Origin: Streptomyces sp. NBS 14/10
Lineage (GTDB): Bacteria > Actinomycetota > Actinomycetes > Streptomycetales > Streptomycetaceae
Direction of reading: 5' to 3'
Assembly (NCBI RefSeq): GCF_002224125.1
Contig: NZ_NCSM01000038.1
Coordinates: 61,437-74,873 of the forward strand
DNA: 13,437 bases
Shown piece by piece: positions 577 to 11,682 of this stretch; within the stretch, counting starts at the first letter, position 1, and each line of letters begins with the position of its first letter. Made by a program: the position numbers and the translations under genes. Under the pieces are notes generated by a model. The model did no database searches. It was given only the letters and a program-made list of their open reading frames with translations, and was not told the origin of the DNA.

Positions 577-1545
577 TCACGAAGATGGTGACCGTGGCGC
601 CGGACTCGGCGGCAGGGGCGGTACCGCCACAAGAGGCAGTGGCGCACGAGGACGCAGTCGCTCGGTGATCGCGTGGCCTGCGTCGACTGTCTGCGGGGTG
701 GCAGGGATAGCGAGCCGCTCGGCCAGGTCGTGGAGGTGCAGGTCGGCGGCGGTCTCGACCAGGTCGGCGAGTACGTTGGCGGCGGCGCGGGCTCGGAAAA
801 CACTGGTGGCCAGGGTGGCGGGGCCGATGACAGCAGCGGGCCACCAAGCAGCGCCGAGGGCGGTGTAGAGCAGTCCCCAGGCCGCGAGCCGGGCGGTGGC
901 GGCGTAGGCGGTGCGGGCGGCAGTTATGTCAGTGCGCAGTTCTGCGGGCAATACCGTCCATAGGCGGGGCCAAACCAAGGCGAGATCATCGAGGCCGTTG
1001 ACCTCGGCGGTGCGGGTGGCGGTGTGCCCGAAGCGGTCACCGACCCGGGTCGCGCATACGGGCCGGGCGGGGCCGAGCCGGGCGCGACGGCGTTGGCAGA
1101 CGCGTACCTGGGCGGCAGCGCGCTCCGGCGCGACGTCGTGGCGCGTGGGCTGGGCTGCCTGCCGGATTGCGGTCTTGAGCTGCCGAGTCGCCTCGTCCCA
1201 GCGTCGCCGACGTAAGCGCAGCAGCCATGTCGCTGGGGGCTGGTCTGCAGGCAGCGCCCAGAGGCGCTCGACGAGACCGCCCAGGGCGCTGGCGAGCAAG
1301 CCGACCCCGGAGGCGGCGAGCAGCGATGCGCTGGCGGCAAGTACGACAGTGCCCGGGGCATGGGCCGCGGGACGGGTGGCGAGCTGGTTGAGCCATGTGC
1401 TCAGTCTGTCCGCGGCAAAGGGGTGGGTCTGGCCCAGATGCAGCGCTGCAGCCAGCAGCGCGGTCCACAGCAGGCCGGGCAGCAGCAGGGCGTTGACCCA
1501 TCGCTCAGCGAGCTTCGTGCCGATCCCGGCGAGGAAGGAGCTCAT
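577..1545 (-). CDS. Multi-pass membrane protein of the CHAT module
   Basis: A 322-aa protein starting MSSFLAGIGTKLAERW. This start was chosen because its ATG overlaps the stop of the upstream gene (ATGA, 1542-1545); the open frame runs further upstream without support. Predicted membrane segments by eye are residues 18-37, 66-92 and about 220-250 (one long or two short helices, rich in W, A and L). Between the second and third lies a basic, Arg-rich region (about 105-180), probably cytoplasmic. The last ~20 residues are Pro-rich. Leu111 is encoded by TTA. I recall related Streptomyces proteins of about this length but know no biochemical function. Translational coupling to the zinc-ribbon gene and divergence from the CHAT protease gene suggest one functional unit. 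As the only membrane component, it is the natural candidate for anchor, pore or effector; that role is inference. Confidence 0.75.
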   Translation of the reverse strand: MSSFLAGIGTKLAERWVNALLLPGLLWTALLAAALHLGQTHPFAADRLSTWLNQLATRPAAHAPGTVVLAASASLLAASGVGLLASALGGLVERLWALPADQPPATWLLRLRRRRWDEATRQLKTAIRQAAQPTRHDVAPERAAAQVRVCQRRRARLGPARPVCATRVGDRFGHTATRTAEVNGLDDLALVWPRLWTVLPAELRTDITAARTAYAATARLAAWGLLYTALGAAWWPAAVIGPATLATSVFRARAAANVLADLVETAADLHLHDLAERLAIPATPQTVDAGHAITERLRPRAPLPLVAVPPLPPSPAPRSPSS

Positions 1546-1979
1546 GAGGCATTGGGTGGGTAGGGCTTCATACGCCCCTCCGGGCCGTGAGCGGCGCACG
1601 TCGGCGGGTGTGCGGTCTCGTCCGGCGTGACCACTCGGTTGCATTTGCCGAGCGGGCAGGTCCAGCCCATGACCTCGGGAGCACCGCCCATCCACGGGGG
1701 GAGGACATTCATCCCCGGGGGCAGGGCCGGGATACCGCCGGGCGAGCCGACTTCCCGGCTTGTCAGTCCGGCTAGTCCCTGCCTGGCGCAGGCGTCTTCG
1801 ATCGCATCGATCAGCTCGCTCAGCCGCGGGCCTTCGGGGTCTGTCGTGCCCGTCAGAAGAGCCAGTAACTCGGTGAGGGCATGCTCTCCACCTCCATCAC
1901 GGATGATTGTCCGCAGCGACGGCCAGCGGCTGAGTTGGTCGCACAATGTCCCCACACGATCGCGTAGCAGTAAGTACAT
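1542..1979 (-). CDS. Small protein with C-terminal zinc-ribbon-like motif, CHAT module
   Basis: A 145-aa protein starting MYLLLRDRVGTLCDQL. The start is supported by GGGAAGG seven to eight bases upstream; the open frame continues to 2072 but has no ribosome site there. Residues 1-75 look helical and could be a small interaction domain of the adaptor type found in conflict systems. Residues 80-105 are a Pro/Gly/Met-rich linker. The C-terminus holds CPLGKC and TCAAH (Cys108, Cys113, Cys128, His131), consistent with a zinc ribbon. The third codon is TTA, so bldA-dependent translation would act right at the start. The stop overlaps the membrane-protein start by four bases. No catalytic motif is visible; a recruiting or regulatory role for the neighbouring protease and membrane protein is inference. 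Confidence 0.75.
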   Translation of the reverse strand: MYLLLRDRVGTLCDQLSRWPSLRTIIRDGGGEHALTELLALLTGTTDPEGPRLSELIDAIEDACARQGLAGLTSREVGSPGGIPALPPGMNVLPPWMGGAPEVMGWTCPLGKCNRVVTPDETAHPPTCAAHGPEGRMKPYPPNAS

Positions 1980-2203
1980 GCGTGCCTTCCCGGGCCCCGC
2001 CCTTGGCAGCCCTTGCAACTGAACGAACGACAAGCAGTCCCAAAGGGTTCGTCGGTTCCGAAAGTTGACCAAAGCCTAGGCCGATCACATCGGTGTGTCA
2101 GTACAGTCCCTGGAACAAGCACCGCCAGCGGGCTCGGGGCTACATGGAATCTCCGCGGGCCCGGAGAACCGCAGCGCTGAACAGACACCGGGGGGGCACG
2201 CCC
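1980..2203. promoter_or_regulatory. Divergent intergenic region of the CHAT module
   Basis: These 224 bases separate the reverse-strand zinc-ribbon/membrane pair from the forward CHAT gene, so both promoters must lie here. A perfect 5-bp inverted repeat with a 3-bp spacer (CCGAT-CAC-ATCGG, 2081-2093) is a possible operator. TTGACC at 2065-2070 could be a forward -35 box, but the -10 hexamer at the right spacing (CATCGG) is poor. No convincing sigma-70-like promoter was seen on the reverse strand. Confidence 0.4.
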
Positions 2204-5200
2204 ATGACGGACCGCGAGGTGGCACTCGCCGCCCTTCACCACCACCTCGCCCGTGCCGACCGCAACCCAGCTCACATCTTCGACGATGCCGCGCTCGAGG
2301 CCGCCCGAGCTCTGATGCGCATTACTGACCCCGAGAGGGATTTGGCTGCCGCCCACGCCCTGGGCTGGTATCACTGGCAGCGCTCCCTCGTCCTTCCAGC
2401 AGGACGAGACGAGGAAGACCAGATAGCAGCAGTCGGCCACCTGGTGCACGTCTACCAGGCACGTCCCGAGTTAGCTTCCGCCGCCCTGGGGCGTGTGGTG
2501 CATCAGGCGGGCCCCACCAGCCTTGTGGCTACCGGGCTGCTGCTCGTCATGGACCGCTATGCCAACGATCTCTTGGCCTCCTTCGGCAACTCCCGTCGGG
2601 AACAGCTACTCGACACAGTCATCGTCCAGTTCCGCGCGATGCTCAAGGTGATGCCTAGCCACTTTCCCACCCGGCCCTCGAACCTGAACGGTCTGGGGAT
2701 CGCGCTCGGTTTCCTTTTCGAGGACACCAAGGAGCTGAACGTGGCTCAGGAAGCGGTCGAGGTCCTGCGAGAAGCGGTCGCCACCGCACCGAAAGACCAC
2801 CCCGAACGCGCCATTTCGCTGGGGTGCCTGGGACTCACGCTTGCGAAGTTGTACGGGTGCACCCAGGAGATGGAGCTGCTCGAAGAGGCTGTGCGGATGA
2901 CGCGGTCGGCAGCAGCACTCACGCCTTGCGGCCACCCCAACCGTCCGCAGGTCCTCTCTACCCTAGGGGGTGTGCTCCGGCTCTGGTGCGCACGGGCAGG
3001 GGAGTCGAGTACTGCTCAGGAGGCGGTTGAGGCTCTACGGGAAGCGATCGCCACCACACCCCGTGATCACCCGGAGCGCTGCGATCGGCTGAACAACTTG
3101 GGGGCGGTCCTCCTACGCGTATCCGAGCACACCCGAGAGAAGGGGGCAGCCGAGGAAGCAGCTCGAGTTCTGCGGGAGGCAGTAGCCAAGACACCTCACG
3201 ACAACCCCGAGCGCTCTGATCGCCTGGGCAATTTGGGGGAGGCCCTGCTACGTGTCTCCGAGCACACAGGACGGGCAGAGGGAGCCGAAGCGGCAGCTGA
3301 TGTCTTACGCGAAGCGCTGTCCGCCACAGACCCGGACGACCCGGGGCGCCCCCGGCACCTGGGCAACTTGGGGGCCGCCCTCATGCGCATGGCTGAGCAC
3401 TCCGGACAGAGGGAGGTGTGGGACGACGCGGTGCTGGTACAGCGAGAGGCGGTGGCCATCACCTCTCCGGACGACCCTGATCGTCCCGCGTACCTGCACA
3501 ACCTGGCGAGTGCACTCGTGCGCATGGCTGAGGGCACCGTGGACACGGCGGTGGCGGAGGAAGCGGTGCGCCTCCATCAGGAGGCCGTGGAGATGGCGCC
3601 TCCGAACGCTCCCCAGCGTCCCATGTACTTGAGTGGCCTCGGATCTTCGTTGGTGGTGCTCTTCAGGCACACCGGGAAAGTGGAGGTATTAGAGGAGGCG
3701 GTCCGAATTCACCGGGACATTATGGAAGTTACCCCCCACGACCATCCAGATCGACCAGTACGTCTCAGTAACCTCGGATCTGCTCTCCAAGAGATGTCGG
3801 ACAGAAGCGGGCAGATGGCAATGCTGGAGGAAGCCGTCGGGGTATTGCGAGAGGCGACGTCTACCGTTCCCCACGATCATCCGGCCCGCCCCCACCACTT
3901 GAACCAACTTGGGACCGCACTCGCCCGTCTGTTCCAGCGCACCGGCCAGATGGCGCTGTTGGAAGAAGCGATTGACGTCCTACGGCAGGCTTCCGAGACC
4001 GCCCCCCGCCAGCACCTCTCGCACCTGAACAATCTCGGGTCCGTTCTTGTGAACCTGTTTAAGTGCACTGACCGAATGGAGGCGCTGGAAGAAGCCGTCG
4101 AGGTCTTGCGGCGGGCCATCGAAGCGGCCCCCGATGACCATCCCACCGTTTTGTTGAGCCTCGGGACCGCCCTCCTGCGCCTGTTCAGGCGCACTGGACG
4201 CATGGAGGTGCTGGAAGAGGGGGTCGGGCTCCTACGGACGGCTGCAGCCAGTGTTCCCGACGATCATCCGACCCGCCCCGCTCACTTGAACAATCTCGGG
4301 TCCGCGCTTCTTAGCCTGTTTGAACGCACTGGGCAAACGGATGAGCTGAGAGAGGCGGTTGATGTCCTGCGGGCGGCCGCCGAAACCGAAGCAGACAATC
4401 ACCCCAATCGTCCCATGTACTTGAACAACCTCGGGACCGCTCTCAAGAACCTGTGCGAGCGTACCGGGCAGTTGGAGAAGCTGGACGAAGGGATCGGGTT
4501 CTTGCGGGAAGCCGCGGAGCCCGCCCACCACGATCACCCTATGCGCTCCACGATCCTAGTCAACCTCGGGACCGCTCTCGAGAGCTCATTCGCACAAACC
4601 AGGTGTACAGCCGTCCGGGAGGAGGCGCGCGACTGCTACCGCCGCGCCGCAGACAGCGCCACAGGTATCACAATCAACCGTATCGAGGCGTACAGGCGCC
4701 TTGCGCGAATGGCGACGGAGCCCCAGGACGCACAAGAGGGGTTGCAAGCTATGGAATCGGCCATCGACCTGCTGGCGGCCCTCGCTCCGGGGACTCTCAT
4801 CCGTACGGACCGCGAGCATCAACTCGGCAAAGCATCGCAACTAGCGGGTGAGGCAGCCGCAGCGGCACTGAACGCGGGCCGCCCCGATCGAGCTGTGGAA
4901 CTGCTGGAGCGAGCTCGCGGCATCCTCGCCGCCGAGACCCTTGCCACGAGAAGCATCGAAGCGGCTCGGCTCCGAGAGCAGCACCCCCGTCTGGCAGACG
5001 AACTCGACCAACTGCACAACCGACTCGCCGTTTTGGATCGTCCGCGCTCGGCGCCGGCAGAAGCGCCCGCGGTGCCCTCGTTGGAGGGGGCTCGGAATGA
5101 AAACCGACGCCTGGCCGCGGAGCGCCAGGAGGTGCACCAGGCTTGGCAGAACCTGGTCGACTGTGTTCGCGGACTCCCAGGCTTCTCGGACTTCTTGCAG

Positions 5201-6322
5201 GCACCTTCCGTCGACCAACTCAGGCGTCACGCGCATGACGGACCAATTGTCATCACCATTGCCACCCGAATCCGCTGCGATGCCCTCATCCTCACCGATA
5301 CCCCCGGCACTCCGGTCCAGGTCGTGCCCCTGACTACACTGAGCCTCCTCGCCACCCTCGATCACGTGCTGCGTCTGCGCGAGGCACTACGCGCCAGCAC
5401 CGATCCCCATCTCCACCCAACGGCGCGAGCCGAGGCACAGCAGGACATCCTGGCCACCCTAGGCTGGCTCTGGGACACCGTCGCCGAACCCGTTCTGACC
5501 CACCTCGGCCACACCTCAGATCCCGCGCCGGGCGAGCCTTGGCCCCGCGTATGGTGGTGTCCCGTTGGAGTCATCGCCAGCCTCCCCCTCCACGCTGCCG
5601 GCCATCACGCCGAAGGCCCTGACGCCCCGATCGGTCGGCGTACCGTCCTCGACTGTGTCGTCTCCTCCTACACCACCACCGTGCGTGCCCTGGGCCACGC
5701 CCGTTCCCTTCAATTTGATGACACCTCTGACGTGGCGACGCTGATCGTTCCAGTCTCAGACGCCCCTGGCGCCACCCGGCTCGGAGCCGGTGACGAGGCT
5801 GCCGCGATCACCGCTGTTGTCTCGCACGCTCATTTGCTTGCCGAACCCACGCGCGACACCGTCCTCCAGGGCCTGCCCAATTACCAGATCGTCCACTTCT
5901 CCTGCCACGGCTACGTCGACTTGGACGATCTCACCAACAGCCACTTGCTCCTCACTGACTACGCCACCAGGCCGCTCACCGTCGCCGACATCCGTGACTT
6001 GAACCTGACCGCTGCTCTGGCCTACCTTTCCGCCTGCGACACGAGCGTCACCGCCCCTCGTCTGGCCGACGAATCCCTGCACATCACCGGAGCTTTCCAG
6101 CTCGCCGGCTACCGGCACGTCATCGGTACGCTGTGGCCAATCGACGACCGCATTGCCTCCAAGGTCGCCACCGACTTCTACGCTTATCTCACTGACAACG
6201 GCGCCGCACAGGTCCAAACCGATATGACCGCCCATGCCCTGAACTACGCCGTTACTCGTCTGCGAACCCGTTACCCCAACACTCCTACGCTGTGGGCCGC
6301 GTACACCCACACCGGCATCTGA
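2204..6322 (+). CDS. TPR-repeat CHAT-domain (caspase-like) protease
   Basis: A 1372-aa cytoplasmic protein; no signal peptide or membrane segment is visible. The ATG at 2204 (MTDREVALAALHHHL) follows a G-run at about 2190; the frame is open further upstream but has no better ribosome site. Residues 1-150 are helical. Residues ~155-810 hold about 15 TPR-like repeats of ~45 residues, marked by 'DHPxRPxxLxNLGxAL' and 'LEEAVxxLRxA'. These usually bind proteins or peptides and act as the sensor arm. Residues ~815-1010 are a helical linker. Residues ~1012-1372 are a CHAT domain (clan CD, caspase/separase-like) with catalytic His1235 in VHFSCHGY and Cys1278 in LSACDTS, both present. TTA codons at Leu90, Leu368 and Leu496 suggest bldA control. 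A self-contained protease that cleaves a partner on activation is the expected role; target and trigger are unknown. Confidence 0.9.
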   Translation: MTDREVALAALHHHLARADRNPAHIFDDAALEAARALMRITDPERDLAAAHALGWYHWQRSLVLPAGRDEEDQIAAVGHLVHVYQARPELASAALGRVVHQAGPTSLVATGLLLVMDRYANDLLASFGNSRREQLLDTVIVQFRAMLKVMPSHFPTRPSNLNGLGIALGFLFEDTKELNVAQEAVEVLREAVATAPKDHPERAISLGCLGLTLAKLYGCTQEMELLEEAVRMTRSAAALTPCGHPNRPQVLSTLGGVLRLWCARAGESSTAQEAVEALREAIATTPRDHPERCDRLNNLGAVLLRVSEHTREKGAAEEAARVLREAVAKTPHDNPERSDRLGNLGEALLRVSEHTGRAEGAEAAADVLREALSATDPDDPGRPRHLGNLGAALMRMAEHSGQREVWDDAVLVQREAVAITSPDDPDRPAYLHNLASALVRMAEGTVDTAVAEEAVRLHQEAVEMAPPNAPQRPMYLSGLGSSLVVLFRHTGKVEVLEEAVRIHRDIMEVTPHDHPDRPVRLSNLGSALQEMSDRSGQMAMLEEAVGVLREATSTVPHDHPARPHHLNQLGTALARLFQRTGQMALLEEAIDVLRQASETAPRQHLSHLNNLGSVLVNLFKCTDRMEALEEAVEVLRRAIEAAPDDHPTVLLSLGTALLRLFRRTGRMEVLEEGVGLLRTAAASVPDDHPTRPAHLNNLGSALLSLFERTGQTDELREAVDVLRAAAETEADNHPNRPMYLNNLGTALKNLCERTGQLEKLDEGIGFLREAAEPAHHDHPMRSTILVNLGTALESSFAQTRCTAVREEARDCYRRAADSATGITINRIEAYRRLARMATEPQDAQEGLQAMESAIDLLAALAPGTLIRTDREHQLGKASQLAGEAAAAALNAGRPDRAVELLERARGILAAETLATRSIEAARLREQHPRLADELDQLHNRLAVLDRPRSAPAEAPAVPSLEGARNENRRLAAERQEVHQAWQNLVDCVRGLPGFSDFLQAPSVDQLRRHAHDGPIVITIATRIRCDALILTDTPGTPVQVVPLTTLSLLATLDHVLRLREALRASTDPHLHPTARAEAQQDILATLGWLWDTVAEPVLTHLGHTSDPAPGEPWPRVWWCPVGVIASLPLHAAGHHAEGPDAPIGRRTVLDCVVSSYTTTVRALGHARSLQFDDTSDVATLIVPVSDAPGATRLGAGDEAAAITAVVSHAHLLAEPTRDTVLQGLPNYQIVHFSCHGYVDLDDLTNSHLLLTDYATRPLTVADIRDLNLTAALAYLSACDTSVTAPRLADESLHITGAFQLAGYRHVIGTLWPIDDRIASKVATDFYAYLTDNGAAQVQTDMTAHALNYAVTRLRTRYPNTPTLWAAYTHTGI
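2680..4630 (+). repeat. Tandem TPR-coding repeats within the CHAT gene
   Basis: About 15 in-frame units of roughly 45 codons are recognisable by a recurring Leu-Gly-x-Ala-Leu core (first near 2692, last near 4566). DNA similarity is clear between later units, for example CTCGGGACCGC recurring with CTCGGGTCCGC variants. Units 11 and 12 (about 4000-4170) are a few codons shorter just before the LG core. The ~45-residue unit is longer than the canonical 34-residue TPR and closer to the ~42-residue kinesin-light-chain type. Confidence 0.75.
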
Positions 6323-6514: not shown

Positions 6515-7989
<1,475 letters not shown>

Positions 7990-8223: not shown

Positions 8224-8448
8224 GACGCGGGATCATCGCACGGACTTGCGACACGGACACGTCAAAGCCCTTGAATTCGCCAACGCAGTGCCCGACCGGA
8301 AGGGCGCAGCGCACCACGTCGGCGAGCGAACGCATGTCGGTCGCCGTGCACATGGTGCACTCCGGGGGCGCGGATCTCGACGTGCACGACTGGCGTACCC
8401 CACAGAGCTGCTGCGGCGCTGGGTGGACTGCTGGCAGGATGCGTGCTC
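8224..8448. other. Divergent intergenic region between lipoprotein stump and membrane gene
   Basis: No frame here has a ribosome site or a recognisable product. The region should hold the old lipoprotein promoter (reverse) and the promoter of the membrane protein at 8449 (forward). No convincing -35/-10 pair was found on either strand. Confidence 0.3.
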
Positions 8449-9528
8449 ATGACCACGTTGCCGGATCAGACGGGGAGTACGCCTGGCCCCACTGCTCCCC
8501 CTGTGCCGGTCCCGAGCACATCCCGCCCCTTTGACGCCTCCGTCAAGCGGCTGAGGGACGACTGTGACGCGCTGGGCGTAGGGAACCCGGTGCCCCTTCG
8601 ACTCCGAGTCGCGCTGAGGCGCCGCCTCCAGCTTCGCCAATGGAAGCGAGCCATTCTAGGCCTGGCTCTGCTGTCGGTAGGGACCTTAGCTGGGTTCACG
8701 GCCGCCCAATTCACAGTGTTCCTAGTTAGGCCAGATCTGTCGTTTGTTTACCAGTACAGCCAAGCCAGTAAGGATGGGTCTATATGGCCGCAATTCGATG
8801 AGATGTCGCCGTTGGAACAGGCTGCTGCAATCACGGGCTTGACGGCTGTCTTTATGTGGGCGGTCTTCAAGGTAGTGGAGAGATGGAGCGGGTGGCAATC
8901 CAACATCGGGCGCAGGCGTTCCCAGGTTGCTAGAGTCTTCCTCGCGCGCCGATATGCGATTGTCCGGGAATGCGCCGAGGCAATTCATGCCTGCGCGGTG
9001 GCCCGACAGCACCGAGAACAGCGTCCCGCGCATACCAAGAAGATCTCGAAGCGGTTGAGGGCCGTACGCCGTGCTGTACTCAATGCGCACAGCAGCCGGG
9101 GAAGCGTTCCAATCTTCTCGGCACGCAGAAAGCGGCTGAAGCTGCACGAGCGCCATGTCATCGCTGCTCTCCAAGAGTTGGAGGCCAAGCTGGACTGCTC
9201 TCCGAACGACGCCCGTAGGGAGCTTGCCGAGGCGCTGCTAACTATCGCTGACCGGTATTGCCAGGGTCGTGTGGGCGACCTGCTGAACGAGGCACAGCTC
9301 ACGGGAGTGCCTACACAACGCAACTGGGAGGCCCTGAGGTACCTATTCGCTTTCCTCCTCGCTGCGGGTGACGTCATTGGAGTCGCGAAGAGTGGAATAG
9401 TCCCAGAAGATGCGCAACAAATCGTGTACGCCCTGGTATGCGGTATCGCACTCGTCCTTGCATTCGGGCGTCAATTCAGGCGTGCAATCGATGTGTTCAG
9501 CGCCATCACGGGCGGTGGCGGTCCTTGA
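8449..9528 (+). CDS. Integral membrane protein of unknown function
   Basis: A 359-aa protein starting MTTLPDQTGSTPG. The ATG at 8449 was chosen because GCAGGA lies about nine bases upstream; the in-frame GTG at 8443 would be too close. The first 30 residues are Pro/Thr/Ser-rich and the next 35 basic. Predicted membrane helices are at residues 68-93, 123-142, 296-313 and 325-341. A long, Arg/Lys-rich helical domain between helices 2 and 3 (about 145-290) would be cytoplasmic. It shows no catalytic motif and I do not recognise the family. Leu80 is a TTA codon. Codon use is less GC-biased than in neighbouring genes, suggesting recent transfer. The layout, paired helices around a soluble middle domain, resembles many uncharacterised accessory-gene membrane proteins, including some in defence islands; that link is only suggestive. 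Confidence 0.75.
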   Translation: MTTLPDQTGSTPGPTAPPVPVPSTSRPFDASVKRLRDDCDALGVGNPVPLRLRVALRRRLQLRQWKRAILGLALLSVGTLAGFTAAQFTVFLVRPDLSFVYQYSQASKDGSIWPQFDEMSPLEQAAAITGLTAVFMWAVFKVVERWSGWQSNIGRRRSQVARVFLARRYAIVRECAEAIHACAVARQHREQRPAHTKKISKRLRAVRRAVLNAHSSRGSVPIFSARRKRLKLHERHVIAALQELEAKLDCSPNDARRELAEALLTIADRYCQGRVGDLLNEAQLTGVPTQRNWEALRYLFAFLLAAGDVIGVAKSGIVPEDAQQIVYALVCGIALVLAFGRQFRRAIDVFSAITGGGGP

Positions 9529-9811: not shown

Positions 9812-10471
9812 GTGCTGCTGCGACTGGCCTACCTGAGCGTGACTAACGTGTTCGCGCTGCTTCGTCTGCTGCCGATGAGCGACCGGAACAAGGATGCGGA
9901 GATCCTGGCTCTCCGTCATCAGATCACGGTGCTCGAACGCCAACTCGACAGTGCCCGAGTACGGTTCACTGCGAGCGACCGGGCGTTCCTGGCGGCGCTG
10001 CTGCACCGGATGCCGTTGCCCGCCCTGCGACGGGTGCGACTGCTCGTACGTCCTGACACGGTGCTGCGCTGGCATCGTGACCTTGCCAGGCGTCGGCATG
10101 CCGCCTTATCGCGGTCCAAGCTACCCGGTCGGCCTCGTACCGTGCGGTCCATCCGGATTCTGGTGCTGCGTCTGGCGAGGGAGAATCCGAACTGGGGCTA
10201 CCGGCGTCTGCACGGCGAATTGCTCGTGCTGGGAGTGAAGGTGGCCGCGTCGACCGTCTGGAAGATCCTCAAGGATGCCGGCATCGATCCAGCGCCCGAC
10301 CAGAGCTCCAGCACATGGGCCGACTTCCTGCGCTCCCAAGCCGACGCTCTCCTGGCCTGCGACCTCTTTGAGACGGTCACCCTGTCCGGCACGCGGATGT
10401 ACGTACTCGCGGTGATCGAACACAGCAGCCGCCGGATCCGGATCCTGGGCGCCACCGCACACCCGACCACC
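9812..10471 (+). pseudogene. Integrase-type transposase, 3' end removed by an adjacent IS
   Basis: A GTG start at 9812 gives MLLRLAYLSVTNVFALLRLL, then [17 protein letters not shown], a helix-turn-helix-like region with ENPNWGYRRLHGEL, and the first catalytic Asp in LLACDLFETVTLSG. The reading frame is intact to ILGATAHPTT and then meets the terminal repeat of the next element at 10472. About 220 of the usual ~340-370 residues remain. The second Asp and the Glu are missing, so it cannot be active. It is a third member of the same broad family in this window, but its sequence differs clearly from the other two types. Confidence 0.85.

Positions 10472-11682
<1,211 letters not shown>

Follow-up and report, generated by a model that had tools for sequence, protein, structure and literature searches.

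A TPR-CHAT protease gene linked to genes for a zinc-ribbon-like adaptor and a helical membrane protein in Streptomyces: a possible protease-gated membrane module

Do a TPR-CHAT protease, a small zinc-ribbon-like protein, and a membrane protein encoded side by side in Streptomyces sp. NBS 14/10 belong together and, if so, what might they do? The stretch analysed here, referred to as the window, spans 13,437 nucleotides at the end of contig C60 in a 12.1-Mb genome. A first-pass annotation of its letters had proposed an intact, divergent set of three genes as a candidate conflict system. All three frames were confirmed as intact between positions 577 and 6322, with the adaptor and membrane-protein genes oriented divergently from the CHAT gene:

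577..1545, minus strand: 322-aa membrane protein P0001, with two hydrophobic hairpins and a basic helical middle
1542..1979, minus strand: 145-aa adaptor P0002, with a helical N-terminal domain, a disordered linker, and a C-terminal zinc-ribbon-like part; 46 homologues
1542..1545, minus strand: overlap (ATGA) of the adaptor stop and the membrane-protein start, from sequence reading
1980..2203, no strand: 224-base intergenic region between the divergent genes, from sequence reading
2204..6322, plus strand: 1372-aa TPR-CHAT protein P0003, from family matches and homologue comparison

Adaptor homologues were sought with a single sequence in 199 related genomes (nine places, including the window) and with a profile in 392 genomes of the genus (29 places in 28 genomes). 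Combined, the searches gave 33 distinct places, the window and 32 others (loci L012–L019 and L052–L075), all of which were read. A membrane-protein homologue adjoins the adaptor at all 33, and a TPR-CHAT gene lies close by at 32, the exception being L014, which ends at a contig end. Counted as present were the decayed copy L016, with a short membrane frame, and L063, whose membrane frame is damaged or mis-assembled. The adaptor and membrane genes overlap in 19 of the 32 relatives, by four bases in 15 and by one base in 4, as counted by hand and depending on the start codons chosen.

A membrane-protein profile built from 40 rows and searched against 101 Streptomycetaceae genomes returned 48 rows in 32 genomes, which correspond to 44 loci once pieces were merged, and a CHAT query in the same genomes returned 73 TPR-CHAT loci in 42 genomes. 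For 35 of the 44 membrane loci, a TPR-CHAT locus is found no more than 10 kb away, compared with about 0.07 expected under an assumed mean genome of 8.6 Mb. Seen from the protease, a membrane gene occurs within 10 kb of 35 of the 73 TPR-CHAT loci, and of 15 of the 22 at E ≤ 1e-60. The genome of NBS 14/10 itself contains a second full trio (L129, G000:C13:259500-275500), with a CHAT protein 40% and a membrane protein 37% identical to those of the window. The first-pass proposal of a three-component unit would have been undermined by small-gene homologues usually found without a CHAT gene; since homologues of both usually lie near one, the proposal survives, with linkage far above chance, and the three genes almost certainly form one unit.

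Gene order is less constant than proximity. Forty stretches were read for it: the 44 membrane loci minus the window, the already read G284:C6, and the two weakest. Of these, 21 have a divergent CHAT gene, 9 a collinear one, and 2 a convergent one, and no CHAT gene was found in the other 8; for one of these eight, L136, it lies just outside the stretch, in L178. PLSDB holds the membrane gene in eight plasmid records, with a CHAT gene beside it in six and none beside it in L078 and L082. In these two Streptomyces plasmids, the membrane gene and a divergent adaptor, with no CHAT gene in the stretch, lie a short way upstream of a very large gene that carries the annotation SDR oxidoreductase or type I polyketide synthase. 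A further CHAT piece was observed in the NBS 14/10 genome at G000:C35:202382-202729.

The protease carries the following features:

2621..4693, plus strand: TPR array, approximately residues 140–830, with TPR_10 and TPR-S above cut-off; limits approximate
5453..6316, plus strand: CHAT protease domain, residues 1084–1371 (PF12770, 128.8 bits, E 3.6e-37)
5906..5908, plus strand: His1235 of the presumed catalytic dyad (VHFSCHG), from sequence and homologue comparison
6035..6037, plus strand: Cys1278 of the presumed catalytic dyad (LSACDT), from sequence and homologue comparison

The CHAT match exceeds the curated PF12770 cut-off of 24 bits and both dyad residues, whose motifs we take to be catalytic, are present, in agreement with the first-pass description. 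Loss of the dyad, which that description had considered, was not seen in any of the 30 homologues that reach it (31 examined; L013 ends at a contig end). P0003 is apparently a competent CHAT protease. Spacing of the TPR units is 45 aa in five of seven intervals, and the region N-terminal to CHAT ranges from 426 to 1427 aa among 58 loci, measured on stop-to-stop frames that overestimate length in places and include one decayed and one cut locus. In PADLOC-DB 2.0.0, P0003 matches DruC only (E 0.014).

Neither P0001 nor P0002 has a family in Pfam, NCBIfam, or PADLOC at E ≤ 1; the membrane protein and the adaptor are two protein families without a match in these collections. Among the best 8000 candidates scored, at least 92 proteins, query included, are homologous to P0001. 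By hydropathy, a basic middle part lies between two hydrophobic hairpins, and an AlphaFold2 model (86 sequences) is all-helical, with a mean predicted local distance difference test score (pLDDT) of 92.8, a predicted template modelling score (pTM) of 0.81, and long helices at 2–37, 64–96, 201–230, and 235–277; together they support the proposed multi-pass membrane protein. One motif stands out:

835..846, minus strand: WWPA, residues 234–237, at the turn of the second hairpin; W234 and P236 invariant, W235 and A237 in at least 90% of 40 sequences

Public records name P0088, P0091, P0115, and other homologues 'Vegetative cell wall protein gp1', which looks like a label inherited from low-complexity similarity.

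The AlphaFold2 model of the adaptor (35 sequences; mean pLDDT 77.7, pTM 0.64) has helices at 2–18, 20–28, 32–43, and 50–66 and short strands around the ribbon, while segment 76–94 falls below pLDDT 50 and is predicted to be a disordered linker. Four cysteines are invariant in all 35 sequences:

1941..1943, minus strand: Cys13, in helix 1, proposed fourth zinc ligand
1656..1658, minus strand: Cys108, in the ribbon
1641..1643, minus strand: Cys113, in the ribbon
1596..1598, minus strand: Cys128, in the ribbon

The earlier label, zinc-ribbon-like, calls for a correction: P0002 has no four-ligand ribbon, its ribbon having three invariant cysteines and the fourth lying in helix 1. We surveyed this helix-1 cysteine by eye in 67 adaptor rows, setting aside L016 (no ribbon) and L143 (four-ligand ribbon) and keeping duplicates (L076 with L083, L136 with L178); a pattern script missed it in L072, L073, L116, and L128, and its matches in L078 and L125 are off the helix-1 position. 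It is present in 62 of the 65 three-Cys rows. No CHAT gene occurs in the stretches read for the three rows that lack it (L078, L082, and L125, the first two apparently of one lineage), and every three-Cys row with a CHAT gene has it; among the 62, L014 was not judgeable for CHAT and the CHAT gene of L136 is in L178. Five distant adaptors with four-ligand ribbons (L139, L143, L145, L147, and L149), judged by eye without an alignment and with L151 (four-ligand, no CHAT gene) left out, have no helix-1 cysteine, and all stand beside a CHAT gene. Because the helix-1 cysteine covaries with three-Cys versus four-ligand ribbons, the economical reading of this covariation is that Cys13 could be the fourth zinc ligand, pinning the ribbon to the helical domain.

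T73 and R75, in 34 and 33 of the 35 adaptor sequences, respectively, are positioned immediately N-terminal to the disordered linker. Since both are conserved directly before it, we regard the T-x-R of residues 73–75 as the first candidate cut site.

Distances between CHAT domains and between membrane proteins are correlated (Mantel r 0.89 over 64 loci, two rows of which are identical plasmids), and none of 999 permutations was as high. Mapped onto a quick CHAT tree, presence of the membrane gene takes 14 changes, compared with 21.3 for shuffles, although 5 of the 24 rows labelled as lacking the gene (L016, L063, L134, L135, and L142) do have one, in pieces or under the length filter. Because the changes are fewer than in shuffles, we read the association of CHAT and membrane genes as probably old and marked by repeated loss or exchange. 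Across 58 loci, identity to the window averages 49% for CHAT, 43% for the membrane protein, 39% for the adaptor, and 34% for the TPR region; in the near relatives L012 and L076 the corresponding values are 66–67, 70–72, 60–61, and 44–45%. Variation is greatest in the TPR array and smallest in the CHAT domain and membrane protein. A simple reading would be a variable input and a conserved output.

Distant relatives add further modules. In L136, L137, and L138 the adaptor module makes up the C-terminal end of a longer protein that also carries a TCAD9-like match (21.8, 36.2, and 33.5 bits, respectively, all below the Pfam cut-off of 40), and the fusion gene lies directly upstream of the membrane gene. 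A gene with helix-turn-helix (HTH), AAA, and TPR parts occurs in the same run in L136 and L137, its AAA_16 match being below cut-off; by our own reading, its product is STAND-like. L137 is a run of four genes: CHAT, HTH/AAA/TPR, TCAD9-adaptor, and membrane gene. The window adaptor has no TCAD9 match in the Pfam scan. TCAD names are associated with ternary conflict systems. Because the adaptor is fused to a TCAD9-like part in three distant loci, these fusions suggest a tie between the trio and the conflict network of Kaur et al. (PMC7159879, PMC8195603). In L149 the adaptor (6598-7263), beside CHAT and membrane genes, matches EACC1 very weakly (E 0.081; 13.4 bits, cut-off 23.6); a distant tie to the EACC1 system is possible.

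The reading that we tentatively prefer, at somewhat less than even confidence, is a protease-gated membrane module in which CHAT cuts within a complex of adaptor and membrane protein. The trio would be a cytosolic protease switch with its output at the membrane. The TPR array may sense an internal trigger, foreign or stress-related, and free the CHAT domain, while the zinc adaptor would dock the protease to the membrane protein. Once active, CHAT would cut within the adaptor-membrane complex, possibly first at the T-x-R, and the cut could alter the state of the membrane protein by opening, oligomerisation, or release of a cytosolic part. As a result, one hyphal compartment might be arrested or die, or a signal might arise at the membrane. 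For some relatives, the input may come from the STAND-like TPR protein and the adaptor-fused TCAD9-like part. Each of these steps, from trigger to membrane outcome, is inferred. The protease-gated module is supported at the sequence level by linkage that is two-way and independent of gene order, by the correlated distances, the dyad, and the identity gradient. Further support comes from the disorder that follows R75, the helix-1 cysteine pattern, and the runs with TCAD9-like and STAND-like parts, and the confident fold predicted for the membrane protein is also counted in its favour.

Several observations weigh against this reading. Nine of the 44 membrane loci have no CHAT gene within 10 kb (two are weak rows left unread, and one is at a contig end), and 38 of the 73 TPR-CHAT loci have no membrane gene within that distance. 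The 19 of these 38 that were read gave neither a membrane nor an adaptor match, which makes the protease family broader than the trio. L138, from outside the 67-row survey, keeps the helix-1 cysteine with its nearest CHAT gene about 15 kb away, and R75 is not kept in all subfamilies, L062 and L064 having YTDHAG at this position. Correlated distances also follow from plain co-inheritance, and TPR arrays diverge fast anyway.

The genomic setting belongs among these points. The flanks of 20 trio loci (107 open reading frames) were compared with 20 control stretches (103 open reading frames), taken from the same contigs at a distance of about 100 kb, using PADLOC at E 1e-10, which gave 43 families at trio loci and 18 in controls. 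Among the matches listed, the trio flanks yielded at least 16 PD-T4-6 models with one member each, likely one protein, and otherwise mad3, mad6, mad8, AriA, MkoA, subtilase, and two C3a; control names were mostly Cas12f-like models, with mad2, mad3, mad8, Csx1, PD-T7-3, and MzaA. Most of these matches resemble generic kinases, ATPases, and transposon nucleases. There is no clear excess of defence proteins over the controls among the matches listed, a small excess being possible, and a defence-island setting was rejected on this ground. The conflict-system link proposed at first has weak support, from the TCAD9-like fusions below cut-off and, at two of those loci, the STAND-like gene in the same run.

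A more specific form of the protease-gated module, unlikely as a whole, would make it a membrane executioner of mycelial bacteria, with two new protein families among its parts. The helical membrane protein would be restrained by the zinc adaptor, with its ribbon pinned by Cys13, until CHAT cuts the linker, frees the membrane protein, and kills or seals the compartment, a functional counterpart of caspase-gasdermin. If this were true, the protease fold would be shared with caspase-gasdermin, and the pore fold and adaptor would not.

Alternatively, the adaptor-membrane pair could be a sensor and anchor, with the membrane protein perceiving an envelope event, the adaptor recruiting and activating CHAT, and other proteins being cut. 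We consider this possible but doubtful. The same logic was proposed for the membrane-associated EACC1-caspase pair (Kaur et al. 2020, PMC7159879), and the membrane protein of the trio is nearly as conserved as its protease. CHAT genes without the pair occur, as expected with substrates elsewhere. However, the most variable part is the TPR array rather than the membrane protein, and distant loci have input-like modules in the run while the membrane protein remains.

An envelope-signalling module with a housekeeping or developmental task in mycelial actinobacteria, and no conflict role, would agree with the flank comparison, in which no clear defence-island signal emerged among the matches listed, and with the phage collection, which gave no match to P0001. 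Two members of one subfamily, L058 and L060, are located near the chromosome middle; a third one, L065, lies close to an end. This alternative is nevertheless rather improbable in view of the distribution. Presence is patchy: 28 of 392 genomes of the genus with the adaptor model, 32 of 101 of the family with the membrane profile, and 4 of 296 in a phylum sample, own genome counted in all three. The eight plasmid records, several copies in some genomes (G546), and the decayed L016 also stand against it, as does position: 9 of 21 loci on contigs longer than 6 Mb sit in the outer 10% at either end (p 0.014), in a hand-picked set that leaves out G542:C1:4252188, away from the ends. Patchiness, plasmid copies, decay, and end-biased positions speak for an accessory role.

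That the trio is a chance neighbourhood in a contig end rich in insertion sequences, as the transposase pieces around it and its place by a contig end might suggest, has a probability close to nil and was ruled out because linkage, at the adaptor places and membrane loci and again in the second trio of the same genome, is far above expectation.

Comparison with known systems revealed partial likenesses. In Craspase (type III-E CRISPR, Csx29 with its substrate Csx30), a TPR array is followed by CHAT and the partner genes are adjacent, as in the trio, whose partners are instead a zinc adaptor and a membrane protein. P0003 was rejected as a Csx29, with NCBIfam NF041237 scoring 31.3 bits against a cut-off of 300 over residues 1215–1327 only, and no Cas gene was detected among the nine other window frames scanned. 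In bacterial gasdermin systems a caspase-fold protease is encoded beside a membrane-acting protein, an arrangement that the trio recalls. The gasdermin fold is beta-rich, whereas the P0001 model is all-helical with permanent hydrophobic hairpins; with this model and no Pfam match, P0001 was rejected as a gasdermin.

According to Kaur et al. 2020 (PMC7159879), EACC1-caspase System 4 pairs an actinobacterial caspase-superfamily protease with a membrane-linked constant component in two genes, and EACC1 has one transmembrane helix with alpha+beta flanks. The trio resembles this pair in joining a caspase-superfamily protease to a membrane component in actinobacteria. It differs in that P0001 has two hydrophobic hairpins and four long helices, and in that its protease is TPR-CHAT; the word CHAT was not found in the main text of that paper. 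EACC1 membership was rejected, as neither P0001 nor P0002 has an EACC1 match at E ≤ 1 and there is no single-transmembrane component. VMAP and other ternary conflict systems in Kaur et al. 2020 have effector-associated domains, and share with the trio a small all-helical adaptor domain. The TCAD9-like fusions of the adaptor in three relatives, under cut-off, may be a further likeness to ternary conflict systems. Family scans of the trio proteins and the other window frames gave no MoxR, vWA, or VMAP match, and no CATRA-named match was seen in Pfam scans of window and distant-adaptor proteins, although no CATRA-aimed test was made. We did not recognise a description of the trio in the openly licensed papers searched.

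TPR-CHAT proteases are common, occurring in 42 of the 101 sampled Streptomycetaceae genomes, and few outside type III-E CRISPR are known to have established partners or substrates. A conserved partner pair offers this class a candidate substrate as well as a candidate place to act, and it extends the inventory of caspase-like signalling in multicellular bacteria by a helical membrane protein and a zinc adaptor. Were the membrane protein the target, membranes would be under caspase-fold control with no gasdermin involved.

Elsewhere in the window, a 361-aa frame at 8443-9528 (plus strand) shows hydrophobic segments by eye and no Pfam match, and is perhaps a separate membrane protein of no Pfam family. 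Transposase pieces flank the trio at 197-487, 7221-7958, 9812-10474, and 10493-11611. The piece on the left (197-487) is a DDE_3 remnant, and those on the right are frames of the rve_3 or HTH_21 type, the longest at 10493-11611.

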